Made by a program: the position numbers and the translations under genes. Below the pieces are notes generated by a model. It worked only from the letters and a program-made list of their open reading frames with translations. It ran no database searches and was not told the origin of the DNA. This document shows positions 1 to 13,268 of a stretch of 64,000 bases of DNA, piece by piece. The stretch is from Salinicola corii (GTDB lineage Bacteria > Pseudomonadota > Gammaproteobacteria > Pseudomonadales > Halomonadaceae): positions 248,001 through 312,000 of the forward strand of contig NZ_VTPX01000004.1 of the NCBI RefSeq assembly GCF_008298015.1, written 5' to 3'. Each line of letters starts with the position of its first letter. Positions within the stretch are counted from its first letter, which is position 1.

Positions 1-284
1 GCGTCTACCACGAGAAGGACCGCGTCCGCCTCAAGCTCGCCCTGCGCGGAAAGCGTCTCGGTTTCTCCCTGATCGAGATCCGCGAAGTGCTCGATCTTTA
101 TGACACCCGCCACGACGGCAGCATCCGCCAACTCGAGCGCCTGCTCGAGATCCTCGCCGATAAACGCGCCAACCTCGAACGCCAGCTCGAAGACATCCGC
201 GTCATGCAGCGGGAGCTGGATCAGGTCGAAGAGCGGTGCAAAGGCGCGTTGGAGGAGTTGAAGGCGGCGGAAAAGAGTTCTTGA
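1..284 (+). CDS. liuR: LiuR, MerR-family regulator of BCAA catabolism (C-terminal part; gene starts before the window)
   Basis: The reading frame is open from base 3 to the TGA at 282-284. It encodes the end of a MerR wing-helix domain (VYHEKDRVRLKLALRGKRLG) followed by a long charged dimerisation helix. This pattern is typical of LiuR, the MerR-type repressor of leucine/isovalerate degradation genes. The HTH lies outside the window. The identification is supported by the liu operon on the other side of the island and by LiuR-like palindromes at 14641, 18448 and 27638. The gene runs towards liuE, so before the island was inserted liuR and liuE were probably convergent neighbours. Confidence 0.85.
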   Translation, partial: VYHEKDRVRLKLALRGKRLGFSLIEIREVLDLYDTRHDGSIRQLERLLEILADKRANLERQLEDIRVMQRELDQVEERCKGALEELKAAEKSS

Positions 285-311
285 GCATGGCTTATACCTG
301 GAAGCTCACCA

Positions 312-584
312 TCAAGACCGCCGATTTTCCTCGACATCATCAGCCAGCCAGACCTTGATCAGCGACTGATAAGGCATATCCCGCTTGTTGGCTTCGATCT
401 TGATGCGATCCAGTAGTGATTCCGGCAACCTCAAAGAGATTGTCTTGGTCGATGGCTTCAGGTTGGGAAGCGCGGCACGCTTAGCCTGGTTCCAGTCCAC
501 ATAGTCGGTGGAGTCGTGGCTTTCCCAGAACGCACGCTCTTCCGCTTCACTCTTGAACTCAGGCGTCGTCTTGGTTTTGCTCAT
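312..584 (-). CDS. brnA: BrnA-like antitoxin
   Basis: This 90-aa protein has a basic, Trp-containing N-terminal half and a C-terminal ribbon-helix-helix-like segment (TKTISLRLPESLLDRIKIEA, about residues 46-65, followed by the second helix). That is the layout of BrnA/CopG-type antitoxins. It follows brnT and overlaps its end by 26 nt, the canonical toxin-first order of BrnTA. A strong ribosome binding site (AGGAGAGGAGG) sits just upstream of the ATG at 584. BrnA proteins neutralise BrnT and repress their own operon by binding a promoter palindrome. A matching palindrome is present at 876-894. Confidence 0.85.
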   Translation of the reverse strand: MSKTKTTPEFKSEAEERAFWESHDSTDYVDWNQAKRAALPNLKPSTKTISLRLPESLLDRIKIEANKRDMPYQSLIKVWLADDVEENRRS

Positions 585-870
585 AAATCCTCCTCTCCTT
601 ACGGTGCATGGCTCGGGCCGAGATAACTCGAATCAGCGTACCGGCTGCACGCAAGGTGAACGTGATGTGTAGCTGACGATGGTCGTCCGTGATGCCGAGG
701 GCATGATATCGAGGTTCGTCTTGGCTGTGTCTGGTATCTTCGACCATCAGCAGTGGCTGATTGAAAAACACCTGTTCCGCTTCGGATTGGCGTACGCCGT
801 GCTTGTCCGCACTTTTGCGGGCATTGCCCTCGTCCCAGTCGAAGCCGGTAATCTGCGCCAAATCGATCAT
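559..870 (-). CDS. brnT: BrnT-like ribonuclease toxin
   Basis: This 103-aa protein has the BrnT signature: an N-terminal FDWDEGNARKSADKHGV segment, then AEQVFFNQ, a middle stretch with DEPRYHALGITDDHRQLHI, and a C-terminal IRVISARAMHRKERRIYE. BrnT toxins are RelE-fold ribonucleases of type II toxin-antitoxin systems. The protein looks full length and intact. No clear Shine-Dalgarno precedes the ATG at 870, and the AT-rich promoter palindrome sits only a few bases upstream, so the transcript may have a very short leader. The pair lies between two copies of the liuR 3' end, which suggests it arrived together with that duplication. Confidence 0.85.
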   Translation of the reverse strand: MIDLAQITGFDWDEGNARKSADKHGVRQSEAEQVFFNQPLLMVEDTRHSQDEPRYHALGITDDHRQLHITFTLRAAGTLIRVISARAMHRKERRIYEQNQDDA

Positions 871-875
871 ATTTT

Positions 876-894
876 GTATATTGCCATAATATAC
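876..894. promoter_or_regulatory. Palindromic operator/promoter of brnTA
   Basis: A perfect 7-bp inverted repeat GTATATT-N5-AATATAC lies directly upstream of brnT in an otherwise GC-rich region, and it contains TATATT-like -10 elements on the minus strand. BrnA-type antitoxins autoregulate by binding such a palindrome, so this is the probable autorepression site (inference). Confidence 0.6.
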
Positions 895-929
895 ATGGCA
901 TGCAAGCAGTGCCTTCCGAGCGCTTCGGC

Positions 930-1198
930 AAGGACCGCGTTCGCCTCAAGCTCGCCCTGCGCGGCAAGCGCCTGGGTTCTCGCTGATCGAGATTCGCGAA
1001 GTGCTCGACCTCTACGACACCCGCCACGACGGCAGCATCCGCCAACTCGAACGCCTGCTCGAGATCCTCGCCGACAAACGCGCCAACCTCGAACGCCAGC
1101 TCGAAGACATCCGCGTCATGCAGCGTGAGCTGGATCAGGTCGAAGAACGGTGCAAGGGCGCGTTGGGGGAGTTGAGGGCGGCGGAACAGGGTCACTGA
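930..1198 (+). pseudogene. Second, frameshifted copy of the liuR 3' end
   Basis: Bases 930-1195 are a close copy, by eye about 90% identical, of bases 15-281 (the liuR 3' end). It starts at AAGGACCGCGT and reaches the end of the gene. One T is missing near 977 (GGTTCT instead of GGTTTCT), which breaks the reading frame. Nothing resembling the liuR HTH region lies upstream; instead there is the brnTA promoter. It is a non-functional fragment left by a duplication or recombination event. From 1001 onward the frame is open (65 residues) and could be mis-annotated as a small protein. Confidence 0.85.
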
Positions 1199-1255
1199 GC
1201 TACGGTTCTGCTCTGCGGCTCCTTCGATGGTAGTCAATCTGCACGGAGCAACGGC

Positions 1256-1639
1256 ATGCAACATGACCTGGAAGCCAACAAGCACAATGCGATCGCCTTC
1301 TATCGCACGGCTTATCTCGGTGATCCTAACCTTGCCGTCGCGACTTATGTGGGTGCCGATTACATCCAGCACAACCCGGTAGTGGGTAATGGAAAGCAGG
1401 CGTTCATCGATTACTTCACGGCAATGGCAGAGCAGTATCCCGGGAAGGAAATCGAGTTCGTGCGCGCGGTGGCCGAAGCCGATCTGGTATCTCTCCACAC
1501 GCACCAGACCTGGCCCGGCGGCGATGAGTACGTCACGATGGATTTTTTCCGTTTCGGCGACAACGGCAAGATCGTAGAACACTGGGATTCCATCCAGAGA
1601 ATTCCGCATGAAACCAAGAACGGAAACCTGATGTACTGA
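1256..1639 (+). CDS. SnoaL-like / NTF2-superfamily protein
   Basis: This 127-aa protein has the SnoaL/NTF2-like pattern: an N-terminal helix (ANKHNAIAFYRTAYLGDP), YIQHNP at about residues 43-48, a middle helix (QAFIDYFTAMAEQYPGKEIE) and a strand pair (DLVSLHTHQTWPGGDEYVTMDFFRF) ending in GKIVEHWDSIQRIP. Cone-shaped α+β folds of this family include ester cyclases, small hydrolases and isomerases. The substrate cannot be told from sequence. It stands alone after the liuR fragment, in an accessory region, so it may be part of the imported material. Confidence 0.75.
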   Translation: MQHDLEANKHNAIAFYRTAYLGDPNLAVATYVGADYIQHNPVVGNGKQAFIDYFTAMAEQYPGKEIEFVRAVAEADLVSLHTHQTWPGGDEYVTMDFFRFGDNGKIVEHWDSIQRIPHETKNGNLMY

Positions 1640-2145
1640 GTACCGGCGGGCTAGCGCTTCAATCTGGCCGTTCCCGTGACGGTAAGCGGCCAGTGACCCT
1701 CCTAATTCCTGAATGATCTTCGTCTTCTGACGCGACAACGCCGGCCTCTCGAGCCACGATTGATTAATGCTTTCGTGGCGTTGTTTCTAATGTAACTATT
1801 GGTTACTGTGCGTAGAACAGCACAAGAAATGGCTTACAGAGTCACAAGCTCATAAGGGACAGCCGCGTTGGGATGATGGGAAACATCGTCATCCTCCATG
1901 GCGGGCGGTAGCGTGGCGGATTTCGTCAAAAGCCAACCGAAAGGGCCTCCACCGAATAACTGTATCTATGCATAGTCATGTCAGATTGTGCAAAACGTGC
2001 GAGCATGCGAATTCTGCATAACGCGCCGAATTATTCTGAGCATTATTCAAAATCAATGGGTTAGGTGTGAAAGAGCGTGCTAAATAAGATTATTCAACGC
2101 GCGAGCTTGTTCAAGTGGCTAAACGAGCGCGCTATCTAATACCCA
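1640..2145. other. Gene-free stretch at the entry to the AT-rich cassette region
   Basis: No convincing gene is seen. Composition changes from GC-rich to AT-rich at about 1980. An imperfect hairpin (CCACGA ... TCGTGG, extended by ACAACG ... CGTTGT) lies at about 1733-1795. A GGGTTAGGTG motif near 2056 resembles an integron core site (GTTRRRY) and is preceded by TAAC about 40 nt upstream, so a decayed attC or attI-like site is possible but not established. Confidence 0.4.
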
Positions 2146-2157
2146 TTGGGCAGGTAT

Positions 2158-2940
2158 ATGGAACATAGCACTCCGAAAAGGGTCTTTCTCGATAATTGTA
2201 TTTTCAGTATTAGCGACACTGTGCGAGGCTCGCAAAAACCTCATCAGATTTATTGGGGTGGAGAAAAGCATACAGTGCAGATTTCTGGGTTTGAGGGAAA
2301 GCCATTGCCTAAGGAATCTGAACCTTGGAAGAGAGAGCAGGTTAAATGCATGACGACAATTGGCAGACTGGCAAGACAGGACGTTATCGCTTTGTCGTCT
2401 TACATGGAAACCATGTTTGAGGGGTGGAAGCGTCCTGGATCATTTCCTGCGACCGCCATTGGCAATGTCTTTAACGGGGTAGAGGTTGAGCACGTAGATG
2501 CCGCCGTTGAGAGGTCGTACTTTTTTCAATCCTCATTGGATGAGTATATTGATAGCCAGAGCATGATAAAATTTTGCAAATGGCTATTGGCTATCGATCC
2601 GAATGTCTTAATTGAAAAAGTTACTCAGGTAAAGGATTTGCCAAGCTTTCTAGTGGCCAATCTGCGGAACGTTAAAAGATTCGGCGAGCTTTGCAAGGGG
2701 TTGTCTGAGAAACAGTACCCGGATGCATTTCACCTATGGACGGCTGAGGTTAATGGTGCAGATTGTTTCTTAACAATTGATAAAAAATTCATTCATGTGA
2801 TGACTGAAACGAATCGGTCAGAGCTGCCTTGCCCACCATTGTCACCTTCTCAACTGCTTAATCAACTAGGAATAGATGAGCGAGATCCCCTTGAATACAC
2901 GGAGGGTGTCTTCTATGACATTTCTGGTAGGCGCGGGTAA
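2158..2940 (+). CDS. PIN-domain-like protein in an integron-type cassette
   Basis: This 260-aa protein is AT-rich compared with the chromosome. Its ends resemble PIN-like nucleases: VFLDNCIFS near the N-terminus (Asp12) and a C-terminal YPDAFHLWTAEVNGADCFLTIDKKF segment in pieces typical of PIN motifs (DAxHxxTA, about Asp189; GADxFLTxDKxF, about Asp208). The middle part is not recognised. PIN proteins are often RNases in toxin-antitoxin or defence settings, but no antitoxin is adjacent. The gene is followed 6 nt later by an attC-like site, so it is probably a cassette cargo gene. A TTG 12 nt upstream could also be the start; the ATG is preferred. Confidence 0.65.
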   Translation: MEHSTPKRVFLDNCIFSISDTVRGSQKPHQIYWGGEKHTVQISGFEGKPLPKESEPWKREQVKCMTTIGRLARQDVIALSSYMETMFEGWKRPGSFPATAIGNVFNGVEVEHVDAAVERSYFFQSSLDEYIDSQSMIKFCKWLLAIDPNVLIEKVTQVKDLPSFLVANLRNVKRFGELCKGLSEKQYPDAFHLWTAEVNGADCFLTIDKKFIHVMTETNRSELPCPPLSPSQLLNQLGIDERDPLEYTEGVFYDISGRRG

Positions 2941-2946
2941 CAGGAG

Positions 2947-3018
2947 GCCTAACAATGCGGTCCACGGGACGTTAACTACGCTGCGCTCCGTTGCCGCCCA
3001 TTACCGCTGGCGTTATGT
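2947..3018 (+). other. attC-like recombination site (integron cassette), site 1
   Basis: The site starts with GCCTAAC (R''-like) and ends with GTTATGT (R'-like). Between them lie arms that pair when folded (TAAC, GCGGT, GGG on the left against CCC, ACCGC, GTTA on the right) with an offset of one base, as in the extra-helical-base architecture of attC. It lies directly after a stop codon and before the next cassette gene, as expected. Confidence 0.75.
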
Positions 3019-3036
3019 TCAAAGAGGAGAATGACG

Positions 3037-3270
3037 ATGCCTAGGAAAACACATCATGTAGTTCCGAATCCTGAAGGCGGATGGGATTTAAAAAAAGGTG
3101 GTGGTGAACGGGTCATCAAGCACTTTGACACAAAACAAGATGCGGTTGACTATGGCCGAGATGTCAGTAGGAATCAGGGCTCGGAGTTTGTGATCCATAA
3201 AAAAGATGGGGACATCCAAAATACGGATAGTCATGGTAATGATCCAATGCCACCGAAGGATAAAAAATAG
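3037..3270 (+). CDS. DUF2188-like small protein
   Basis: This 77-aa basic protein begins PRKTHHVVPNPEGGWDLKKG and continues with a KQDAVDYGRDVSRNQGSEFVIH segment, the pattern of DUF2188 proteins (HVVP..GGW...; A..YA...A...G.E...H..DG..). The function of the family is unknown. The ATG at 3037 is chosen over the one at 3031 because the ribosome binding site GAGGAG ends 7 nt before 3037 but only 1 nt before 3031. It sits directly after attC-like site 1, so it is the first gene of the following cassette. Confidence 0.75.
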   Translation: MPRKTHHVVPNPEGGWDLKKGGGERVIKHFDTKQDAVDYGRDVSRNQGSEFVIHKKDGDIQNTDSHGNDPMPPKDKK

Positions 3271-3540
3271 TCGTTAAAAATGAGTGTGCTTAGGCCGACA
3301 GGGGTAGCAGGTTGGGTTCGATTCCCCTGGCGTTTGTTGGCTCCATGGCTCTTTTATTAACTTTACTGAGATACATCAGCGTAAACGTGTTCCTGCCGGC
3401 CACCAGCAACAGTAAAAGGGGGTGTCTATGGTGAAAGTATTAACTGACCGAACTCGCGTTTTTTAAGCTCCATGTTCGAAACGATGTGGGCTATCGGAGT
3501 CGGCGGCGTTGTCGGACACCTGTCTGCTTAAGCGCACTCA
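3271..3540. other. Gene-free stretch within the cassette array
   Basis: No supported gene is visible. It contains a CAGGGG ... CCCCTG stem around GGGTTCGATTCCCC (about 3298-3330) that superficially recalls a tRNA T-arm, without a plausible acceptor stem. It may be the degraded remainder of one or more cassettes. A 26-codon open frame from 3281 has no clear ribosome binding site. Confidence 0.4.
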
Positions 3541-3542
3541 GA

Positions 3543-3627
3543 ACATAGCAATTACAGGCACGGCGACAGTTACTACATTGCGGCTTCGCCCCCATTCCGT
3601 AACTGCGCGTGCTGTGCGGCATTATAT
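3543..3627 (+). other. Degenerate attC-like hairpin, site 2
   Basis: Long imperfect arms GCACGGCGACAGTTAC (3558-3573) and GTAACTGCGCGTGC (3599-3612) pair with one bulge. The flanks also pair loosely (ACATAGC..ACAG against CTGT..ATTATAT). The TAAC and GTTA core triplets are degenerate. Position, size and the bulged-stem layout match an attC site before the next cassette gene. Confidence 0.5.
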
Positions 3628-3657
3628 CGGTGAGTCAATTCTTATCAAGGGGGAAAC

Positions 3658-4266
3658 ATGGGACTACCAAGCACCTACACAAACGCTTACGGGAAGTTGG
3701 GTGAGTTTTTTCACAGGCTCAGAGATGGCCAGGCTCCGGAACGTTTTACTCAGGAACACTTGAAAGACCTAGGGTACACATCAAAGAATCACCGGGCTTT
3801 CATTCCTATCATGAAATCACTTGGTTTTTTGACTCCTGATGGTCAGCCAACGAACCGGTACAACGAATATCGAAGTCATTCAAGCTCTCAAAGGGTGATG
3901 GCAGAAGCCCTTAAAGATGCATATTCGGACATATTTCTTATCAAATCTCATCCAACACCAGCCGACAAGCCAGCAATAGAAGGTAAGTTTAAGAGCTATC
4001 ACAATGTTAGTGACAGTGTTGCAAAAATAATGACAAGCACCTTTTTTGCACTGCTGAATTTAGCGGATTTAAATGCCCTTAATAAATCAAAACCCGTAGA
4101 GCCGGAAAATGCTAGCACTGAAGACCAACAAGCGAAACCTGAGAGTGGTGTTCAGCCACCGGTTCTTGGTGGGCTTCATTACAATATTCAAATACACCTA
4201 CCTGCGACCAAGGATGTAGAAGTTTATAACGCAATTTTCAAGTCTCTCAAGGAGAATTTGTATTGA
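3658..4266 (+). CDS. DUF5343-like protein, first gene of a two-gene cassette
   Basis: The 202-aa protein begins MGLPSTYTNAYGKLGEFFHR and contains a winged-helix-like N-terminal half (residues 1-75, with LGFLTPDGQPTNRYNEYR) followed by a helical segment (SQRVMAEALKDAYSDIF ... SDSVAKIMTSTFFALLNLADL). This matches the DUF5343 pattern as I know it. A Pro/Glu-rich linker and a short C-terminal strand (LHYNIQIHLPATKDVEVYNAIFKSLKENLY) follow. A strong ribosome binding site (AAGGGGGA) precedes the ATG. The stop overlaps the next start (TTGA), so the two genes are translationally coupled. DUF5343 genes are often found beside abortive-infection or HEPN genes; function here is inferred only from that. 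Confidence 0.7.
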   Translation: MGLPSTYTNAYGKLGEFFHRLRDGQAPERFTQEHLKDLGYTSKNHRAFIPIMKSLGFLTPDGQPTNRYNEYRSHSSSQRVMAEALKDAYSDIFLIKSHPTPADKPAIEGKFKSYHNVSDSVAKIMTSTFFALLNLADLNALNKSKPVEPENASTEDQQAKPESGVQPPVLGGLHYNIQIHLPATKDVEVYNAIFKSLKENLY

Positions 4267-4844
4267 AATATAAAGACTTAAGAGACTATCTTTTTCGCGG
4301 TCTTTTGTTTGAAGCAGAAGCCACTTCTTTCCAAAAAGCTGGTATCCAGGTCGGTGCTGATCAAACTGCTTCAGAGCAACAGCTATTGACTGAAGCCTTA
4401 GCGCCTTTTCCGGTAAACCTCAGAAATAGTGCACTCGAAATGGCAAGACTCTACTCAGTACTATTTGCGTTTGAGAATCATGTGAGGGGGTTTATAAGGG
4501 AAACGCTCTCTGAGGCGGAAGGAAGCGATTGGCTAGATAAATTGCCTAGAAAGGTGAGAGATTTCGCGGAAAAGCGTCAGAAAACCGCTATGGGGGACTC
4601 ATGGTTAGAAGGAGAGAAAACTGACCTTCTAGGTTTCATCGATTTCGGTCATCTCTCACAGATAATCGTTGAGAAGTGGGAGCATTTTCAGGACGTTATG
4701 CCTTCGCAGCATTGGCTGAAACAGAGAATGGACGAGCTTGAGAAATCTAGAAACTTTGTAGCTCATAATAGAGCGCTGCTGCCTAGCGAGTACCAACGAA
4801 TGTATATGTACATTGCTGACTGGAATCGTGTTGTCGGGCTTTAG
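4263..4844 (+). CDS. Swt1-like HEPN-domain protein (putative RNase/toxin)
   Basis: This 193-aa, mostly helical protein has a C-terminal HEPN signature: LEKSRNFVAHNRALLPSEY with Arg163 and His168 giving the R-X4-H motif. The preceding helices (ALEMARLYSVLFAFENHVRGFIRETL) also fit the Swt1-type HEPN family. Active HEPN proteins are metal-independent RNases found in toxin-antitoxin and abortive-infection systems. The start is a TTG overlapping the stop of the DUF5343 gene. The pair forms one cassette that ends in attC-like site 3, so it is a candidate mobile defence or TA module (inference). Confidence 0.7.
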   Translation: MKYKDLRDYLFRGLLFEAEATSFQKAGIQVGADQTASEQQLLTEALAPFPVNLRNSALEMARLYSVLFAFENHVRGFIRETLSEAEGSDWLDKLPRKVRDFAEKRQKTAMGDSWLEGEKTDLLGFIDFGHLSQIIVEKWEHFQDVMPSQHWLKQRMDELEKSRNFVAHNRALLPSEYQRMYMYIADWNRVVGL

Positions 4845-4922
4845 ATATAACAATCGGCTGAACCGCGACCGATTTTCCGCCGCTTTGCGGCTCCAAATCG
4901 ACGCGTGAGCCGTGCGTTAGCT
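4845..4922 (+). other. attC-like recombination site, site 3
   Basis: The site begins at ATATAAC immediately after the HEPN stop codon and ends with GTTAGCT. The inner arms pair well (CGGCT..CGCG..CGAT on the left against ATCG..CGCG..AGCCG on the right) with a one-base offset. An additional GCCGC-TTT-GCGGC apical hairpin is present. This is the clearest attC site in the array. Confidence 0.8.
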
Positions 4923-4931
4923 GGAGAAAGG

Positions 4932-5330
4932 ATGCAAGAGTTTCGAGTTCAGTCATCAGAAACAGAAGCTGAATTAATTTTTTTCGGCGTCAATGGCGAT
5001 AATTTCTCAGTGGCATTCTCGTCGGGTACGGTCAATTGCCAGAGGGAAGTGTGGGCCTACACCGATGCACATGGACTTGCAAATCTATTCGAATGGATGG
5101 CATCGCAAAGTAAACCTTGGAGAACATTGGAAGGATGGGAATCTATTGAAGGTGAGTTCAAGTTTTATGTCAGCTGCAACGCACGCGGGAACATAATCTT
5201 TGACATGGAGATGAACCATTTGGGTGGTGTTGAAGAATGGCGGGTGAAAACCCAACTCAAGTCTGAGTTTGGCCAACTTCCTAGCCTCGCCAAGAAGGCT
5301 CGAGCTTTCTTTGGCCCATCGCCAAGCTAA
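4932..5330 (+). CDS. DUF6228-like protein in a cassette
   Basis: This 132-aa protein begins MQEFRVQSSETEAELIFFG and continues with strands and a helix (DAHGLANLFEWMASQSKPW), then LEGWESIEGEFKFYVSCNARGNIIFDMEM and a final helix (QLPSLAKKARAFF). This resembles the DUF6228 family of unknown function. The ATG at 4932 is chosen because GGAGAAAGG lies just upstream; longer in-frame versions would run into attC-like site 3. The stop codon overlaps the next attC-like arm, as is common for cassette genes. Confidence 0.65.
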   Translation: MQEFRVQSSETEAELIFFGVNGDNFSVAFSSGTVNCQREVWAYTDAHGLANLFEWMASQSKPWRTLEGWESIEGEFKFYVSCNARGNIIFDMEMNHLGGVEEWRVKTQLKSEFGQLPSLAKKARAFFGPSPS

Positions 5331-5384
5331 CCAGGCGGTCGATGGGAGCGCTTTTCCGCGCCGCTTTCATCTGTCGCCTTCAGC
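5326..5384 (+). other. Degenerate attC-like hairpin, site 4 (end of the array)
   Basis: GCTAAC at 5326-5331 overlaps the DUF6228 stop codon. Arms AGGCGGTCGATGGGAGCGC (5333-5351) and 5358-5379 pair imperfectly. The distal core is CTTCAGC instead of GTTRRRY, so this site is decayed and probably recombination-deficient. It marks the return to chromosomal GC content. Confidence 0.5.
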
Positions 5385-5486
5385 TGATGGGGGCTCGCAA
5401 TTTTGTGACACCTGCGCCAACCTGCCACTCTGGCTGCCAGCTCGCGCAGTCACGACCATGCACGCGGGATAAACCGAGTACTGACG

Positions 5487-6032
5487 ATGGATTGGCTGAC
5501 ATTCATTTCGAGCCTAGTCCGGTCGCTGGCCTGGCCGGTGTTCGCACTGATTCTCGCGCTTCTCTTCCGCGACCAGATCCTGCAGTTTGGATCCTTCATC
5601 AAGAAGCTGCGTGCTGGGCCTATCGAGGCCGAGTTCGAACACGACCTCGAACAGCTGCGCTCACTGTCGCCGGGTCGGGTTGACGTCGTGAGCGCGCGTG
5701 CCGGTGAAGCGGAGACATTTCTTACCGAGTTGGCCGAGCGCCATCCCCGTACGGCCATACTGGAGGCGTGGACTCGACTGGAGCGCGCAGCCCGCACGTC
5801 GCTGTCGTCACAGGAGAGCGAAGATGGTAGCCCGGGCGAGGTATCAGCGGTTCGGCTGCCGGAGCTGCTGGTGCGGGCAGGCCTGATCGATCAGCCACAG
5901 GTAACGCTGTATCACGAGCTTCGGCGTCTGCGTCGTGAGGTGGCTCGCGATCTCGATCCGACGAACGAGGCGGCACGAATCTATGTCGAGTTGTCTCGCG
6001 CGCTTCAATCCCAGCTAGATCGCGGAGCCTAG
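5487..6032 (+). CDS. Single-pass membrane protein with a degenerate HEPN-like C-terminus
   Basis: This 181-aa protein has one N-terminal membrane helix (about residues 5-27, SSLVRSLAWPVFALILALLF), a basic juxtamembrane segment, an acidic linker and a helical C-terminal domain ending LYHELRRLRREVARDLDPTN. Relatives I recall read LRxLRNxxAH at this place. Here the expected His is Arg, so an RNase-type active site would be missing. GC content matches the chromosome. No partner gene is adjacent. Function is unknown; a sensory or structural role is as likely as a toxin role. Confidence 0.6.
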   Translation: MDWLTFISSLVRSLAWPVFALILALLFRDQILQFGSFIKKLRAGPIEAEFEHDLEQLRSLSPGRVDVVSARAGEAETFLTELAERHPRTAILEAWTRLERAARTSLSSQESEDGSPGEVSAVRLPELLVRAGLIDQPQVTLYHELRRLRREVARDLDPTNEAARIYVELSRALQSQLDRGA

Positions 6033-6051
6033 AGTGGTTGAACCATGATGA

Positions 6052-6116
6052 CTAGCGCGCCGCCAACGCCACGTCCACCTTCGACCAATTTGGCCTGCCG
6101 AGTGTCAGCGTCAGGA
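6052..6116 (-). pseudogene. Copy A of the liuE 3' terminus
   Basis: Read on the minus strand this segment encodes LGRPNWSKVDVALAAR and then a TAG stop. It aligns with the genuine LiuE C-terminus [16 protein letters not shown] at 7703-7750. It is diverged rather than identical, so it is not a recent tandem duplicate of the resident gene. Nothing else of liuE is attached. It borders the methyltransferase gene on its left side. Confidence 0.75.
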
Positions 6117-6134
6117 TTAACCGCGGGGAATGAG

Positions 6135-6830
6135 ATGAACCAGGACGAGATCAAGGCGCTATTCGACCAGCAGGCGGCAAGCTACGACCAGCAGTGGGCC
6201 AAGACGTCACCGATTCGGAATTGCCTGCATCTATTGCTGGGGTCGTTGTTCGCGAATTTGCCGGCGGAGGCACGAATTCTCTGTGTCGGGGTGGGGACGG
6301 GCGATGAGCTGTTCTATCTCGCCTCACAGCATCCTGGTTGGCGTTTTACGGCCGTGGAGCCGTCGGGGCGGATGCTCGACGTCTGTCGGGAAAGGGCCGA
6401 GCAGGAAGGCGTGACGTCTCGCTGCACCTTCCATGAGGGGTATCTAGCGTCACTCCCCACCGCCGAGCTACACGATGCGTCGACCTGCCTGCTCGTCTCG
6501 CAGTTCATCACGAATCTCGACGAACGCTCCGGTTTCTTCCGTGGCATTGCCGAGAAGCTCAAATCGGGTGGCGTTCTCGCGAGCGCCGACCTGGCGTCAG
6601 ACATCGCGTCACCCGAATATGACGTACTGCTTCACGCGTGGATGAACATGATGTCCGCGGCCGATGTCTCCGAAGAGATGATGGCGCGGATGCGCTATGC
6701 CTATGCGCATGATGTCGGTGTGCTACCGCCAGCGCGGATTGCCTCGATCATTGAAGACGGCGGCTTCGAACTTCCGGTGCCGTTTTTCCAGGCGGGGTTG
6801 ATCCATGCATGGCTTTCCCGCCGGGCTTGA
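6135..6830 (+). CDS. Class I SAM-dependent methyltransferase
   Basis: This 231-aa protein has the Rossmann methyltransferase layout: FDQQAASYDQQWAK at the N-terminus, motif I ILCVGVGTGDELFYLA (about residues 48-63), an acidic residue after strand 2 (AVEPSGRMLDVCRERA), DASTCLLVSQFI as motif IV and a post-motif LKSGGVLASADLASD. It belongs to the methyltransferase type 11/12-like group; the substrate is unknown. The ATG at 6135, preceded by GGGGA, is chosen because upstream in-frame codons overlap the liuE fragment. The gene lies between two liuE 3'-end copies and was probably imported as one unit with one of them. Confidence 0.85.
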   Translation: MNQDEIKALFDQQAASYDQQWAKTSPIRNCLHLLLGSLFANLPAEARILCVGVGTGDELFYLASQHPGWRFTAVEPSGRMLDVCRERAEQEGVTSRCTFHEGYLASLPTAELHDASTCLLVSQFITNLDERSGFFRGIAEKLKSGGVLASADLASDIASPEYDVLLHAWMNMMSAADVSEEMMARMRYAYAHDVGVLPPARIASIIEDGGFELPVPFFQAGLIHAWLSRRA

Positions 6831-6890
6831 GTGAATACCCCTCTACCCCTGGAAGAAATTCCTGTAAATAACTGATTTTGATCTGGTTTT

Positions 6891-6977
6891 TTATGGAGAG
6901 GTTCGCTTCGCCGCCAGCGCCACCCCCGCCTTCGACCGGTTCGACTTGCCGATGGCGTCGCCGAGCCAGGGCGTAGC
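6891..6977 (-). pseudogene. Copy B of the liuE 3' terminus
   Basis: The minus strand reads ATPWLGDAIGKSNRSKAGVA followed by LAAKRTSP and a TAA stop. It aligns along about 28 codons with the genuine LiuE end ([28 protein letters not shown]). Nucleotide identity is very high over the last 45 bases and falls upstream, so the copy comes from a related but different liuE allele. It separates the methyltransferase unit from the toxin-antitoxin unit. Confidence 0.8.
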
Positions 6978-7001
6978 ATTCACCTCCGCTTTTGATATTT
7001 A

Positions 7002-7016
7002 TACGGCTTTGCCGTA
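7002..7016. promoter_or_regulatory. Palindromic operator of the higBA-like operon
   Basis: A perfect inverted repeat TACGGC-TTT-GCCGTA lies 11 bp upstream of the toxin start, just after an AT-rich TTTGATATTTATAC stretch that could hold the -10 element. This is the usual place for antitoxin autorepression (inference). Confidence 0.5.
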
Positions 7017-7026
7017 CATTTGCGTA

Positions 7027-7337
7027 ATGCTATTCATCGAAACCTCCACGTTCACCAAGCTGTTGCCAAGCTACCTCACGGACGAAGAGTACCGCGGGCT
7101 GCAAACGTATCTTTTGCAGAAGCCGGATGCTGGCGATCTCATCAAAGGCTCGTCTGGTGTGCGTAAGGTTCGGTGGGCTCCAACCGGTTCCGGCAAGAGC
7201 GGCGGTGTCAGGGCAATTTACTACTGGAAAAATCCGATCACGAGATATGGATGCTGACGCTTTACGGTAAATCGGAGCGTGCCAGCATTCCTGGCCATAT
7301 GCTCAAGCAGATAGCGGAGGCGATCAAAAATGGGTGA
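7027..7337 (+). pseudogene. RelE/HigB-family toxin, frameshifted
   Basis: The frame opens with MLFIETSTFTKLLPSYLTDE and keeps RelE/HigB features (YRGLQTYLLQKPDAGDLI, GVRKVRWA, GVRAIYYW), but stops at 7255-7257. A second frame resumes at once with DHEIWMLTLYGKSERASIPG and HMLKQIAEAIKNG, ending in a TGA at 7335-7337. Adding one A to the A5 run at 7228-7232 restores a continuous ~103-aa toxin. The antitoxin start overlaps this restored end by 8 nt, which confirms that the second frame is the true end. The toxin is therefore inactivated unless slippage or a sequencing error explains the missing base. Confidence 0.8.
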
Positions 7338-7617
7338 GAGAAATATTGGGGCCGAGATCCTCGAAGGCATCCAGGAAATCAAACAGTTCAAGAAAGGCAA
7401 GCTGGCGCTGCGAACGCAGGAGCTTTCAGAGCCCTCGCCGCCCAAGGCGATCCGGTTGAAGCTGAAACTGTCGCAATCCGCCTTTGCCGGCCTGATGGGT
7501 GTCAGCGTGCGAACGCTTCAGGACTGGGAGCAGGGGCGGCGGGAGCCGCAAGGGCCGGCAGTGGCACTACTGCGCATTGCTGAGCAGCACCCGGAAGTCT
7601 TCGAAAAGCTGCATTGA
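7330..7617 (+). CDS. HigA-like XRE-family antitoxin
   Basis: The 95-aa protein has a C-terminal helix-turn-helix: IRLKLKLSQSAFAGLMGVSVRTLQDWEQG, given in parts, at about residues 40-68, followed by RREPQGPAVALLRIAEQHPE. This is the HigA/NadS type of antitoxin that follows a RelE/HigB toxin. It would neutralise the toxin and repress the operon at the palindrome near 7002. It looks intact while its toxin is frameshifted. A strong terminator hairpin follows at 7652. Confidence 0.8.
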   Translation: MGERNIGAEILEGIQEIKQFKKGKLALRTQELSEPSPPKAIRLKLKLSQSAFAGLMGVSVRTLQDWEQGRREPQGPAVALLRIAEQHPEVFEKLH

Positions 7618-7651
7618 ACGAAGTGATGTGCCACTTCCAACGGATAATGTC

Positions 7652-7690
7652 AGGCCTCGAGTCAGATCACTGACTCGGGGCCTTTTGCTT
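7652..7690 (+). terminator. Rho-independent terminator, possibly bidirectional
   Basis: Arms AGGCC-T-CGAGTCA and TGACTCG-G-GGCCT surround a GATCAC loop and are followed by TTTTGCTTT. It ends the antitoxin transcript and lies directly after the liuE stop on the other strand, where the T-tract is weak. Confidence 0.75.
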
Positions 7691-8602
7691 TCAGCGGCTC
7701 GTTCGCTTCGCCGCCAACGCCACACCCACCTTCGACCGATTCGGTCTGTCGAGGGTCTGTGTTATCCACACCCCTGTCTCTGCCAAGTTATCCAGATCCA
7801 CGCCGCTGTCGATGCCGAGGCCGTTGAGCAAGTAGATCACGTCTTCGGTGGCGACGTTGCCGGTGGCGCCCTTGGCGTAGGGGCAGCCGCCGAGTCCGGC
7901 GACGGCGCTGTCGATCACGCCGATGCCCTCTTCGAGCACGGCGTAGAGATTGGCCAGCGCCTGGCCGTAGGTGTCGTGGAAGTGGGCGGCGAGCTTGTCC
8001 CTGGGGATATCTCGGCTCACGGCGTCGAGCAGGCGCTTGGCCTTGAGCGGGGTGCCGACGCCGATGGTGTCGCCCAGCGAGATCTCGTAGCAGCCCATCT
8101 CGTACAGCGCCCGGGAGACCTCGGCGACCCGCTGGGGGGCGATGTTGCCTTCGTAGGGGCAGCCGAGCACGCAGGAGACATAGCCGCGCACGCGCACGTT
8201 CGACTCACGGGCGCGTTCGATCACCGGGGCGAAGCGCTCCAGTGACTCGGCGATGGAGCAGTTGATGTTCTTCTGGGAGAAGGCTTCGCTCGCCGCTGCG
8301 AAAACGGCGACCTCTTCGACGCCGCACGCCAGCGCGGCCTCCAGCCCTTTGAGATTGGGCGTAAGCGCGGAGTAGATCACACCCGGCCGGCGGCGAATGC
8401 CGGTCATCACCTCGCGGTGATCCGCCATCTGCGGCACCCATTTGGGCGAGACGAAACTCGCCGCTTCGATCCGTTTGAGCCCCGCCGCGCCGAGCCGGTC
8501 GATCAGTTCCAGTTTGGCGCCCGTGGCGATGGGTTCGGCTTCGTTCTGCAGCCCGTCCCGCGGGCCGACCTCGACGATACTCACTCGCTTCGGCACACCC
8601 AT
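7691..8602 (-). CDS. liuE: Hydroxymethylglutaryl-CoA lyase
   Basis: LiuE cleaves HMG-CoA to acetoacetate and acetyl-CoA, the last step of leucine degradation. The 303-aa protein has the DRE-TIM-type N-terminus [15 protein letters not shown] (about residues 7-21), the metal-site region [14 protein letters not shown] and the HMG-CoA lyase signature [20 protein letters not shown] with the catalytic Cys near residue 240. The ATG at 8602 follows liuD after 1 nt and has a GAGGGGG ribosome binding site; an in-frame upstream start would add 16 residues inside liuD. It is the last gene of liuABCDE. Two diverged copies of its 3' end lie in the neighbouring island. Confidence 0.95.
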
Positions 8603-8603
8603 C

Positions 8604-10688
8604 TCACACCCCCTCAGTCGCGTCGGCAGTGGCGAACGCCAGTAGCTCATCCCCCTGCGCCACGGCGTCGCCCACCTTGAAGTGAAACGCTTCCACCGCG
8701 CCGGCGGCGGGGGCGCTCAGGGTGTGCTCCATCTTCATCGCTTCTACCACCACCAGCGGCGTGCCTTTCTCCACCGTCTGGCCGGGTTCGACCAGCAGCG
8801 CCACCACAGTGCCGTGCATGGAGGCGGTCAGCCTGGCTTCGACCTCATGCGGCAGATGATCGACCCGGTCCGAGCGCCGCCAGATCAGGCGGGACTCGAA
8901 GCCGGCGGCGGTGAGGATGATCGTTTCGCCATCCAGAGTGGGATCGGTGTGCGCCAGCAGGCGACGGCGATGGCCATCCAGGGTGATCGCCACGGCGTCA
9001 CCGTCGAGCCGCTGCAGGCGGCCTTCGAGATGCTGCTCGCCGTCTCGGTCCACGCTCAGTTGCCAAGTCGATTGCGAGGCAGAGCGTGTCGCGGTCACGG
9101 GGATCGGCGGCGCGCCCTCGGCCTCGGCAAATGCCAGTCGAACGTGCTGCGGGGCGTTGAGCCGCCAGCCGTCACGGCGCTCCCACGGTGAACGTTCATC
9201 GCTGGCTCGATCCAACTGGTCGAGCGCCACCAGCGCGGCGCAGGCGAACTCCGCGTTGGAGACCGGTTCACTCGCGAACAGCGCGTTGTGGTGGTGTTCG
9301 ATAAAGCGGGTGTCGAGCCGGGCGGCGATGAAATCCGGATGCGTCACCAGCCGCTGCAGAAAACGGCGGTTGGTGGTCACGCCGGAGACATCCAGCGCAG
9401 CCAACGCACGATCCATCTCTGCCAGGGCCTGGCCGCGATCCTCGCCGTGAACGATCAGCTTGGCCAGCATCGGGTCGTAGTGCATCGAGACGTCATCGCC
9501 GGCCTCGACGCCGCTATCCAGGCGTACGCGATCCGATGTCAGGTCGCCAGCGTTCAGGTCGAGACCGAACCGCTCTAGCGTGCCGGTGGCGGGCAGAAAG
9601 TCGTTGTCCGGATCCTCGGCGTAGAGCCGCGCTTCGATGGCGTGGCCGGTGAGCGTCAGCGCGTCCTGGCTTTTGGGCAGCGGCAGCCCGGCGGCCACGC
9701 GCAGCTGCCACTCGACCAGATCCTCGCCGGTGATCATCTCGGTCACCGGGTGCTCGACCTGCAGCCGGGTATTCATCTCCATGAAGAAGAACGGCGAGCC
9801 GCTCTCCTGCGCGGTTTCGGCGGCGGCATCCAGCAGGAACTCCACCGTCCCGGCGCCGACATAACCGATCTCCTGGGCGGCGCGGACGGCAGCTTCGCCC
9901 ATTTGCTGGCGCAGTACGGGGGGCAGGTCGGGGGCCGGTGCTTCTTCCAGCACCTTCTGGTGGCGGCGCTGCACGCTGCAGTCGCGCTCGAACAGGTAGA
10001 CACCGTTGCCTTGGCTATCGCAGAACACCTGCACTTCGACGTGGCGCGGCTGGGTCAGGTACTTCTCGATCAGCATGCGCTCGTCGCCGAAGGCGGCGCG
10101 AGACTCCCGGCGGCAGCCGTCGAGGGCGGCCTGAAACTCGCGGTCGGACTCGACCACCCGCATGCCCTTGCCACCGCCGCCGGCGCTGGCTTTCAGCAGT
10201 ACCGGATAGCCGATCTTGCCGGCTTCCTCCCGGAGCAGTTCGTCCTCCTGCGCCTCGCCGTGGTAGCCGGGCACCAGCGGCACGCCGGCCTTAAACATGC
10301 GCGCCTTGGCCGACGCCTTGTCGCCCATGGCGGCGATGGCGCTGGCCGGCGGCCCGACGAAGATGATCCCGGCAGCCTCGCAGGCGGCGACGAAGTCGGC
10401 GTTCTCGGAGAGAAACCCGTAGCCCGGATGGATGGCGTCGGCGCCGCTGCGCTGGGCGGCGGCGATGACCTTGTCGATATCGAGATAGCTCTCCCGCGCG
10501 GGGGCGGGGCCGAGGCGCACGGCCTCGTCGGCCTCGCGCACGTGGCGCGCGTTGGCGTCGGCATCGGAGTAGACGGCAATGGTGCGAAGCCCCAGACGGC
10601 GGGCGGTGCGCATCACGCGGCAGGCGATCTCGCCGCGGTTGGCGATCAGCACCGAACGTAGCGGGCGAGGCGCATTTGTCAGGCTCAT
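8604..10688 (-). CDS. liuD: 3-Methylcrotonyl-CoA carboxylase, biotin-containing α subunit
   Basis: The 694-aa protein carries biotin carboxylase domains ([20 protein letters not shown] at the start, ATP-grasp Gly-rich loop [11 protein letters not shown], catalytic region [15 protein letters not shown]), a middle BT-like region and a C-terminal biotinyl domain with VEAMKMEH (biotinylated Lys near 652). It pairs with LiuB to carboxylate 3-methylcrotonyl-CoA. The LiuB partner and operon context separate it from propionyl-CoA carboxylase α. Its start overlaps the liuC stop by 4 nt (ATGA) and its stop lies 1 nt before liuE. Confidence 0.93.
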
Positions 10689-11548
10689 GAGCGCGGTTCC
10701 TTGTTGTCCGAATGGCCGTCTTTATGCCTGTGGGCATCTCCGGTGGGCTGCCAGGCGGGCGGGCGCTTGTCGAAGAAGGCGGCGAGTCCCTCCTGACCTT
10801 CGCGGCTGACCCGCAGTTCGCTGATCGTGCGACAGCAGCGCTCACGGGTGGCATCGGAACCGGGATCCTGGTCGACCCGGGCCAGCAGCGCCTTGGTGGC
10901 GCGCTGGGCCTGGGGCGAGGCGGCGAGCAGCCGATCGATCGTCTGGTCGATGTGGATATCCAGCTCCTGCCCATCCACCACCTCATGCACCAGGCCCAAG
11001 GACTGCGCGGTGGCGGCGTCGATCACCTCGGCGGTGAGCGCGTAGCGGCGCATCTGGCGCGGGCCGATGGCGCGCTGAACATAGGGGCTGATCACCGCCG
11101 GCGAGAGGCCGATACGCACTTCCGACAGGCAGAACGTCGCTCTTTCTGAGGCGATCACCACGTCGCAGCAGGCGGCAAGCCCCACCGCGCCGCCGTAGGC
11201 TGCGCCTTGCACCCGGCACAGCGTCGGGCAGGGCAGCTCGTCCAGCTGCTGCATCAGCCGCGCCAGCTCGCGGGAATCCTTGAGGTTGTCGTCGAAGTCG
11301 TAGTCGACCATGCGCTTCATCCAGTGCAGATCCGCCCCGGCGGAGAAGTGCTTGCCGTCGGATGCCAGCACCACCAGCCGCACCTCGTCGCGCTCGGCCA
11401 GCGCGTGCAGGCGTTCGAGATGGGCGTTGAGCTCGCTGATCAACGCATCGTCGAAGGCGTTGTGAACCTCGGGCCGATCCAGCGTCAGCCGCGCGACGCC
11501 GCGGGAGTCGATGGTCAAACGAGTGAAGCTATCGGATATGGCTGCCAT
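10685..11548 (-). CDS. liuC: Methylglutaconyl-CoA hydratase
   Basis: This 287-aa crotonase-fold protein has the oxyanion-hole segments KHFSAGADLHWMKRM (about residues 70-84) and QGAAYGGAVGLAACCD. The DLHWMKRM motif is characteristic of methylglutaconyl-CoA hydratase. It hydrates 3-methylglutaconyl-CoA to HMG-CoA between the LiuBD and LiuE steps. The C-terminus has an unusually polar extra tail ([20 protein letters not shown]). The start lies after an intergenic segment with heptamer repeats; the stop overlaps liuD. Confidence 0.92.
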   Translation of the reverse strand: MAAISDSFTRLTIDSRGVARLTLDRPEVHNAFDDALISELNAHLERLHALAERDEVRLVVLASDGKHFSAGADLHWMKRMVDYDFDDNLKDSRELARLMQQLDELPCPTLCRVQGAAYGGAVGLAACCDVVIASERATFCLSEVRIGLSPAVISPYVQRAIGPRQMRRYALTAEVIDAATAQSLGLVHEVVDGQELDIHIDQTIDRLLAASPQAQRATKALLARVDQDPGSDATRERCCRTISELRVSREGQEGLAAFFDKRPPAWQPTGDAHRHKDGHSDNKEPRS

Positions 11549-11572
11549 GGCGGCCTCTCATGATCATGTTGG

Positions 11573-11614
11573 CTTCGAGCTTCGAGCTTCGAGCTTCGAG
11601 CTTCGAGCTTCGAG
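11573..11614. repeat. Heptamer tandem array, 6 × CTTCGAG
   Basis: Six perfect head-to-tail copies of CTTCGAG lie in the liuB-liuC intergenic gap, followed by a decayed tail (CTTCTCG ... GCTCGAAGC). The unit is a variant of those at 13279, 42131 and 58097. Confidence 0.95.
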
Positions 11615-11660
11615 CTTCTCGTGGCTCGCTGCCCGTCGCTCGAAGCTGGGCGCGAAACGC

Positions 11661-13268
11661 CTACATCCTAAACACGCCGAATCTTGTCTCTTCGACTTCT
11701 GCATTCATCGCGGCGGAGAGCGCCAGGCCGATCACGTCGCGGGTCTGCAGCGGGTCGATCACGCCGTCGTCCCACAGCCGGGCGCTGGCGTAGTAGGGGT
11801 GGCCCTGGCGTTCGTACTGTTCGCGAATCGGCGCCTTGAACGCCGCTTCCTCGTCTTCCGGCCAGGCGCTGCCGTCGCGTTCGAGCTGCTCGCGCTTCAC
11901 CTGGGCCAGCACGTTGGCGGCCTGCTCGCCGCCCATTACCGAGATGCGCGCATTGGGCCACATGAACAACAGGTTCGGATCATAGGCACGACCGCACATG
12001 CCGTAGTTGCCGGCGCCGAAGCTGCCGCCGATCAGCACGGTGAACTTGGGCACCTTGGCACAGGCCACGGCGGTGACCAGCTTGGCGCCGTGCTTGGCGA
12101 TGCCCTCCTGCTCGTACTTGGAGCCGACCATGAAGCCGGTGATGTTCTGTAGAAAGATCAGCGGGATCTGGCGCTGGGCGCAGAGTTCGATGAAGTGCGC
12201 GCCCTTCTGCGCCGACTCCGAGAACAGCACCCCGTTGTTGGCGACGATACCCACCGGATGGCCGCACCAGTGGGCGAAGCCGGTGACCAGGGTGTCGCCG
12301 TAGTAGCGCTTGAACTCGTCGAAGTCGGAGTCGTCCACCAGCCGTGCGATCACCTCGCGGACGTCATACGGCTTGCGCAGGTCGGTGCCGACGATGCCGT
12401 AGAGCTCCGACGGGTCGAGCCGCGGCGGCGCGGATTTTTTCATCGCCAACTGGCCGCTCTTGTGCCAGTTGAGACGGGAAACCGCGCGACGGGCGAGCTG
12501 CAGCGCGTGGGCGTCGTTCTCGGCGTAGTGGTCGACCACGCCGCTGATCTTGGCATGGACGTCGGCGCCGCCCAGGTCCTCGGCGCTGATGGTCTCGCCG
12601 GTGGCGGCCTTCACCAGCGGCGGGCCGCCGAGAAAGATGGTGCCCTGGCCGCGCACGATGATCGATTCGTCGGCCATCGCCGGCACGTAGGCGCCACCGG
12701 CGGTGCAGGAGCCCATCACCACCGCGATCTGCGGGATGCCCGCGGCGGAGAGCGTGGCCTGGTTGTAGAAGATGCGGCCGAAGTCGTCATGGTCGGGGAA
12801 GACCTCGTCCTGTTCGGGCAGGTAGGCACCGCCGGAGTCCACCAGGTAGAGGCAGGGCAGCCGATGCTTGCGGGCGATCTCCTGGGCGCGAAGATGCTTC
12901 TTCACCGTCAGCGGGAAGTAGGTGCCGCCCTTGACCGTGGCGTCGTTGGCGACGATCACGCACTCCACGCCGCTGACCCGGCCGATGCCGGCGACCACCC
13001 CGGCGGCGGGTACCTGGGAGTCGTAGACCTCGTGCGCCGCCAGGGCGCCGATCTCCAGAAACGCCGAGCCCTCGTCGAGCAGATGGTCGATCCGGTCGCG
13101 GACGAACAGCTTGCCGCGGGACTCGTGCCGCGCGCGGGCCTTGTCGCCGCCGCCTTGGGCGATGCTGGCGGTCAGGTCGCGCAGCTTGTCGACTTCGCTC
13201 CGCAGCGCCGCCTCGTTGGCCTGGAAGGCTTCCGTGCGGGGGTTGATCTGGCTACTCAGTATGGCCAT
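11661..13268 (-). CDS. liuB: 3-Methylcrotonyl-CoA carboxylase, carboxyltransferase β subunit
   Basis: The 535-aa protein is a full-length acyl-CoA carboxyltransferase with N- and C-terminal crotonase-like lobes: [60 protein letters not shown] and, in the C-lobe, [20 protein letters not shown] and [18 protein letters not shown]. The motif set matches MCC-β rather than propionyl-CoA carboxylase β. It forms the MCC holoenzyme with LiuD. About 110 bp with heptamer repeats separate it from liuC, and about 160 bp, nearly all heptamer array, from liuA. Confidence 0.95.

Follow-up and report, generated by a model that had tools for sequence, protein, structure and literature searches.

The gap between liuR, the gene of a MerR-like regulator, and liuE, the gene of hydroxymethylglutaryl-CoA lyase (HMG-CoA lyase), in Salinicola corii is probably a sedentary chromosomal integron without an integrase, in which cassette arrays are swapped by homologous recombination and which is framed by modules attached to copies of the ends of both genes. 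It lies in the 64-kb stretch analysed here, called the window (G000:C25:248001-312000). Observed were an attI site, attC sites, the absence of the integrase gene intI, a nearly total difference of the cassettes between species and a divergence of the right border independent of the divergence of the species. The genus was sampled with 18 Salinicola genomes including that of the window; G labels denote genomes and L024 to L035 the loci of relatives.

The full liuR gene is located at G000:C25:247883-248284, with its intact 3' part at 1-284 of the window on the plus strand and the stop at 284. liuE (7691-8605, minus strand; NCBIfam NF004283 over cut-off) converges with it at a distance of 7.4 kb, and these coordinates confirm what the sequence-only reading of this DNA had described, two facing 3' ends with about 7.4 kb of accessory genes between them. 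That reading overlooked the centre of the gap, where about 1740-5330 is a chromosomal integron without integrase, with one-strand cassettes and three attC sites. The two genes were present together in the same 14 of 18 genomes and were convergent neighbours in all 12 that carry both on one contig, 5.0-9.7 kb apart; in L025 and L031 contigs break inside the gap, which is unbroken in 12 species. The neighbourhood on which the sequence-only reading relied thus held throughout these genomes, and liuE was absent (E < 1e-5) from the surroundings of all 68 further loci with liuR relatives (L036-L103), searched for up to 10 kb per side. The arrangement was seen only in the Salinicola group. Its order from left to right is liuR, optional modules, a conserved leader of about 400 bp, plus-strand genes of low G+C content, the gene orf181, optional modules and liuE. 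In all 12 species whose gap is unbroken, conserved flanking genes enclosed differing genes, in G005 judged from gap size and attI only. A tRNA was considered as insertion target and dropped, no tRNA gene being present in the window.

The integron leader (1740-2145, plus strand) was recognised by alignment with 11 relatives and with the integron integrase region of G002. The aligned parts comprise the region on the 3' side of intI, a gap where intI itself has been deleted, a sequence at 1960-1975 that we take, from its motif, to be LexA-box-like, and an attI ending in CTAATACCTGTTA. The window thus has a predicted attI site homologous to the region adjacent to intI in G002, with an altered crossover motif, ATTG (2145-2148) instead of the GTTA that is intact in most aligned relatives. 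At least one match to the leader was found in each of the 18 genomes, and at the liu locus in 14 of 14; in G010 this match is on the contig bearing a partial liuR end. Remnants of the intI start persist in L025 (59 nucleotides) and L028 (56 nucleotides). When the leader was scanned for a cassette promoter, a single promoter-like site came up, on the minus strand, and shuffled sequences gave as many. The integron integrase model TIGR02249 scored over its cut-off in one of the 18 genomes, G002, which carries neither liuR nor liuE and whose integrase gene is split over two frames and looks frameshifted. A 293-aa open piece of this integrase has matches at E <= 1e-55 in 77 of 275 genomes of the family and none in the other 17 Salinicola genomes. 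The window's genome, with neither a TIGR02249 match over cut-off nor a match to the G002 piece, lacks the integrase gene beside attI that makes a chromosomal integron complete. A second place of the platform is beside a gene named pepD-like by eye, in G002 and, with intI cut to about 260 nucleotides, in G003 and G007; G014 has the pepD-like gene and attI. Separately, locus L143 of the window's own genome (G000:C6) bears two attI-core-like sequences 1.3 kb apart (2178-2237 and 3554-3623) with upstream DNA unlike intI, similar ones occurring in G003, G005, G008, G009 and G011. Truncated intI starts beside attI-like sequences were seen at L146, L144, L158 and L149 (G007, G003 and two in G004), also in G005, and the genus seems to possess several platforms without integrase.

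Patterns with strict textbook core sites did not match any attC, and relaxed versions succeeded. A strict structural pattern found 12 sites in the 43.9 kb of array DNA of the 12 gaps and none in 91.8 kb outside; array DNA shuffled by dinucleotides 20 times gave 0.25 sites on average and 2 at most. A covariance model built from 10 of these 12 sites and one G002 site gave 35 partly overlapping matches with E up to 1, spread over 18 sources. In the window, the attC sites at 2950-3015 (E 2.3e-9), 3546-3624 (E 3.6e-7) and 4848-4919 (a seed of the model) share one orientation; the covariance model found none elsewhere in the 64 kb, and an unfiltered search of 1-12000 added no credible site. Three attC sites within 2.0 kb with no integrase gene beside them constitute a cluster of attC sites lacking an integron integrase (CALIN), defined by at least two such close sites in the part of PMC12444791 that is accessible.

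All four cassettes are on the plus strand. Here and in the relatives, cassette borders were set by hand from alignments, and open reading frames (ORFs) were selected with a greedy rule based on length and homology instead of a gene finder. Cassette 1 (2146-3015) has an ORF of 264 aa with no Pfam, PADLOC or NCBIfam match and ends in the first attC. Cassette 2 (3016-3624), ending in the second, encodes a DUF2188 protein of the PDC-S16 family (3031-3270). Cassette 3 (3625-4919), ending in the third attC, carries DUF5343 and Swt1-like HEPN (3658-4266 and 4263-4844; PDC-M34A/B). Cassette 4 (4905-5330) encodes a DUF6228 protein with a homologue in L032, and is regarded as lacking a recognisable attC behind it because the unfiltered search found no further one. 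The plus strand carries 5 of 5 ORFs in the window array and 45 of 45 ORFs of at least 75 aa in the 12 arrays. Strong matches to defence families were given by 3 of the 10 scanned window proteins, all to the candidate families PDC-S16 and PDC-M34A/B, and by four of ten cassette proteins of relatives, the other six having none: L027 has an OLD-like ATPase and also a TIR protein (PDC-S35), L034 has RT_UG14 and L028 has PDC-M36A. By these family names, the cargo would consist in part of candidate virus-defence genes. In L034 (13136-14605) the match, to a defence reverse transcriptase, is full-length (E 2e-209). To the right of the array, orf181 (5487-6032, plus strand), a gene without family assignment, forms the border; of the 12 species whose gap is unbroken, 10 have it, the exceptions being L028 and L029, where none was seen.

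The cassettes differ almost completely between species. Of the 45 cassette ORFs in the 12 arrays, only 4, forming two pairs, resemble an ORF of a different array. L026 and L030, despite 98.0-99.3 % identity in mltA, pdxY and DUF72, have no cassette ORF in common (2 and 4 ORFs). Beside the array their identity falls to 93.2 % in liuR, 94.5 % in SnoaL and 92.1 % in orf181, and returns to 99.3 % in the methyltransferase gene of the next module. orf181 drops likewise in L034/L035 (90.3 %) and L033/G005 (91.5 %). Fisher tests of near against far genes in these three close pairs, with liuD counted as far, gave 4.5e-7, 9e-11 and 1.7e-5. An integrase acting in trans, supplied by a plasmid or by incoming DNA of relatives, could still move cassettes at attI, with homologous recombination as mere background. 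The intact crossover motif of most aligned relatives and the close relatives of the G002 integrase in the family speak for such a source, as does the ability of a functional IntI to mobilise CALINs in trans, stated in the accessible part of PMC12444791. We consider it unlikely, as 17 of the 18 Salinicola genomes have no full integrase, that of G002 is split over two frames, the crossover motif of the window itself is changed, and an integrase would not cause the exchange of orf181 and the leader.

For orf181 the identity was confined to 87.7-93.2 % over the 45 pairs of the 10 species, pairs that are not independent of each other, while that of DUF72 spanned 98.1 to 78.7 %. The two were uncorrelated (Spearman 0.24, P 0.11), and the control, pdxY against DUF72, reached 0.94. 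Because orf181 is equally similar in close and distant species, the borders appear to recombine freely; orf181 behaves as if shared genus-wide, which fits an exchange by homologous recombination. Purely vertical inheritance after single ancestral gains, with gene ends duplicated by chance and the differences due to loss and fast drift, is largely refuted by this independence, unless the flank genes are the anomalous ones. In its favour, some modules are common to close relatives in the same order (window and L024; L026 and L030). The toxin-antitoxin (TA) pair BrnTA, on the other hand, is patchy on the tree of the flank genes, being present in L025 and not in L027, in L028 and not in L032, in the window and L024 and not in L026 and L030, although clean excision between repeats could mimic such patchiness. 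Together with the window/L024 identities given below, this makes vertical inheritance alone quite improbable.

Displaced gene ends were sought with liuR and the last 400 nucleotides of eight other genes against 14 loci (E up to 1e-4). For liuR, nine extra pieces were obtained in 7 of the 14 loci, and for liuE ten in 9 of the 12 loci holding it; the seven neighbouring control genes, 80 gene-locus cases in all, gave a single one, from mltA in L029. With the second contig of G010 counted, 8 of 14 species have a partial liuR end. Of the 12 species whose gap is unbroken, BLAST showed partial liuE ends in 9, including an internal piece in L028. A comparison of copies added a liuE remnant of 24 nucleotides in L033. 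Gene-end copies thus recur in most species, more often than by chance, and nearly never for the controls. The claim of the sequence-only reading that the junction was used repeatedly for insertion is supported within Salinicola. The displaced copies it had pointed to in the window are real. The second liuR 3' end (930-1198, plus strand) runs from nucleotide 133 to the stop with 92-93 % identity, and the two liuE ends on the minus strand, which it had placed a few bases off at 6052 and 6891, are at 6058-6106 (86 %, E 9e-10) and 6901-6943 (91 %, E 8e-11). The single control piece, at 6398-6486 in the upstream flank of L029, is a partial mltA 3' end of 77 % identity, and the gene-end phenomenon may extend to another gene.

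Displaced liuR ends start at nucleotides 55, 107, 112, 133 (two), 145, 152 and 162, and those of liuE between about 719 and 863. Because the copies begin at scattered positions, neither gene is taken to contain a fixed att point, and this scatter also disfavours any single fixed integration point. Phage-like elements and SCC, the staphylococcal cassette chromosome, integrate in gene 3' ends and restore the gene; e14 in icd and SCC in rlmH are such site-specific islands. That each outer module is such an element or its remains would fit the new gene end brought by each module and the old end displaced; it is very improbable, since the start points of the copies are scattered, at variance with the one crossover point of a site-specific 3'-end island, and no recombinase, integrase or transposase was found among 40 Pfam-scanned gap proteins (10 from the window, 30 from relatives; some gap ORFs were outside the scan), in line with the sequence-only reading, which had seen no integrase gene.

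The modules between the gene ends were identified mostly by Pfam. On the liuR side the outer module is BrnTA (312-870, minus strand; BrnT at 559-870 and a CopG/BrnA-like antitoxin at 312-584), also present in L024 and L025, with BrnT lost in L028. The inner one encodes a SnoaL-like protein (1256-1639, plus strand), with homologues in L024, L026, L029, L030 and L032. The liuE side has an S-adenosylmethionine (SAM)-dependent methyltransferase (6135-6830, plus strand), found also in L026, L030, L032 and L035, and outermost a TA-like pair (7030-7617, plus strand) of a toxin-like ORF and a helix-turn-helix (HTH) antitoxin-like gene. The toxin-like ORF has no NCBIfam match and looks frameshifted (7030-7257 and 7173-7337), both pieces matching one ORF of 126 aa in L033; the antitoxin-like protein (7330-7617) is NadS/MqsA-like below the NCBIfam cut-offs. 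Of the accessory units named by the sequence-only reading, BrnTA and the methyltransferase therefore stand, and its "higBA-like" unit is an HTH antitoxin-like gene with a frameshifted-looking toxin-like ORF. BrnTA is positioned outside SnoaL in the window and in L024, and outside the leader in L025 and in L028; the methyltransferase is outside orf181 in the window and in all four relatives that have it. The leader directly after liuR (L027, L033) and orf181 directly adjoining liuE (L034) probably represent the older state.

The last codons and the bases behind the stop of the liuR and liuE copies track the adjoining module; the module labels of the copies were assigned by hand from ORF matches, and some copies remained unlabelled. 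Among 22 liuR copies, the end GGGTCACTGA was present in 6 of 6 beside SnoaL and in 0 of 16 others, and a common sequence behind the stop was found in 4 of 4 beside BrnTA, to which an unlabelled partial copy of L031 is related. Among 21 liuE copies, GCGAAGCGAACCTCT was carried by 4 of 4 adjoining the methyltransferase and 0 of 17 others, and CGCGCTAG by 7 of 7 beside orf181 and additionally by G005. In the window the intact liuR has the BrnTA-linked version and the displaced liuR end the SnoaL-linked one, while the displaced liuE ends at 6058-6106 and 6901-6943 have the orf181-linked and the methyltransferase-linked versions, respectively. In L032 (Salinicola socius, 10001-10402) the liuR in the intact position ends early with a different C-terminus, beside a GYF_2-domain module shared with L035. 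Between the window and L024, 775 of 778 positions agree in BrnTA plus the displaced liuR end's first half, 255 of 270 in the intact liuR 3' part, 358 of 377 in SnoaL, 217 of 243 in the leader and 190 of 250 in the attI part. The identity of BrnTA and the liuR remnant, higher than that of the surrounding segments, reflects a recent exchange whose edges fall in or beside liuR copies; that this tract is more alike than the neighbouring intact liuR also argues against vertical inheritance alone. Exchange anchored in gene ends, as the sequence-only reading had proposed, is borne out by this one recent case. As the mode of entry it suits the outer modules and fails for the middle of about 3.4 kb, a cassette array beside attI. 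Because of attI and attC, the central genes would have been captured by a now-lost integron integrase or have arrived with the array, not via gene ends. That reading had named as a possible objection an integrase/att pair that explains the whole gap as one element; the att site seen here accounts for the centre and not for the outer modules.

Several observations weigh against swapped arrays and gene-end-anchored modules, in addition to the dependence among the species pairs of the orf181 comparison. The liuR gene shows no drop in L034/L035 (96.6 %) and L033/G005 (96.3 %), and liuD of L026/L030 is also low (92.5 %), so that the divergence has no sharp limit at the array. DUF72 of the window and L024 is 98.1 % identical, and the mosaic therefore extends beyond the modules. 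One founding BrnTA/liuR-remnant junction common to all species was not upheld: the junction of the window equals that of L024, L025 begins elsewhere with 25 extra bases, and L028 is without BrnT. As these junctions differ, several founding events or later decay are needed. The liuE piece of L028 (nucleotides 719-758) stops short of the gene end, and L034 and G005 have no gene-end remnant at all. The flank tree is built from three adjacent genes that possibly recombine, with three weak nodes (47, 57, 61). Transfer by DNA uptake and homologous recombination is indicated only indirectly, by the recombination signatures of the window/L024 and orf181 comparisons and by genes for ComEC and DprA, over cut-off, which would permit uptake in Salinicola. 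All comparisons are between species, not between strains of one species, and exchange is deduced from them.

For the integrase-less integron with swapped arrays we propose the following course. After the loss of intI, the leader, attI and the attC cassettes would have been kept between liuR and liuE, and homologous recombination of the RecA type in shared borders, liuR or the leader on the left and orf181 or liuE on the right, would exchange whole arrays as blocks. The anatomy suggests that the outer modules came with the donor's own liuR or liuE 3' end: homologous recombination in the core gene would have brought in one side of the module, and the other side would have been joined within the gene of the recipient, whose old end was displaced inwards. 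Once a module is flanked by two gene-end copies, its later gain or loss would need only homologous recombination between the copies. As a guess from the cargo, the benefit could be small TA and candidate defence genes gained without harm to liuR or liuE. More tentatively, and with rather more doubt than confidence, the integron may be in use genus-wide after the loss of its integrase, with leader, attI and borders as landing zones, arrays of defence candidates swapped as blocks across species and the gene-end-flanked modules serving as recombinase-free cassettes.

Single parts of this arrangement have counterparts. The "minimal mobile elements" of Neisseria are different genes between the same core genes, exchanged by flank recombination. 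In homology-facilitated illegitimate recombination one junction is homologous and one non-homologous, and the joining of modules proposed here likewise has homology on one side only. As with the orphan C-terminal modules of contact-dependent inhibition (CDI) and Rhs systems, displaced old ends lie behind a newly acquired module; unlike there, the duplicated liuR and liuE ends belong to metabolic genes outside the function of the cargo. From the accessible parts of the following three papers, hotspots without mobile elements that are exchanged through flanking core genes are a described mode (PMC5635113). The Salinicola gap resembles them in its different genes between the same two core genes, the lack of an integrase and flank recombination, and differs in keeping old core-gene ends in readable order and in the integron at its centre. 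In Acinetobacter baylyi, cassette arrays were replaced without integrase through conserved ends by recA-dependent homologous recombination (PMC3410848). Such whole-array replacement is what we propose for Salinicola; those experiments concerned class 1 integrons in a laboratory host, and here a natural chromosomal array is concerned and exchange is deduced from comparison. The ilvD integron of Xanthomonas also has a fixed chromosomal place across the genus, an integrase often lost or broken and remaining attC cassettes; there, arrays are usually identical among strains that share one broken intI (PMC12444791). In contrast, Salinicola species without an integrase have almost wholly different cassettes, and they retain attI and have gene-end modules around the array. 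The parts of this combination, a CALIN-type integron with attI kept, species-varying cargo and gene-end-anchored modules, are known, and the variant is new. In the openly readable literature searched, no paper treated Salinicola together with integrons; Halomonas with integron integrase and gene cassette led to a paper on carbonic anhydrases, and in the accessible part of a paper on halophile integrons neither of these two genera is mentioned.

Integrase-less arrays have been described as frozen, at least for Xanthomonas in the accessible text of PMC12444791, yet the cargo in Salinicola differs between almost all species. It thereby becomes testable whether ordinary recombination alone keeps an integron evolving. 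From the stack of gene ends it can be read in what order small modules, TA and candidate defence ones, arrived at a single site, and the stack points to a possible route by which genes may spread without any recombinase.

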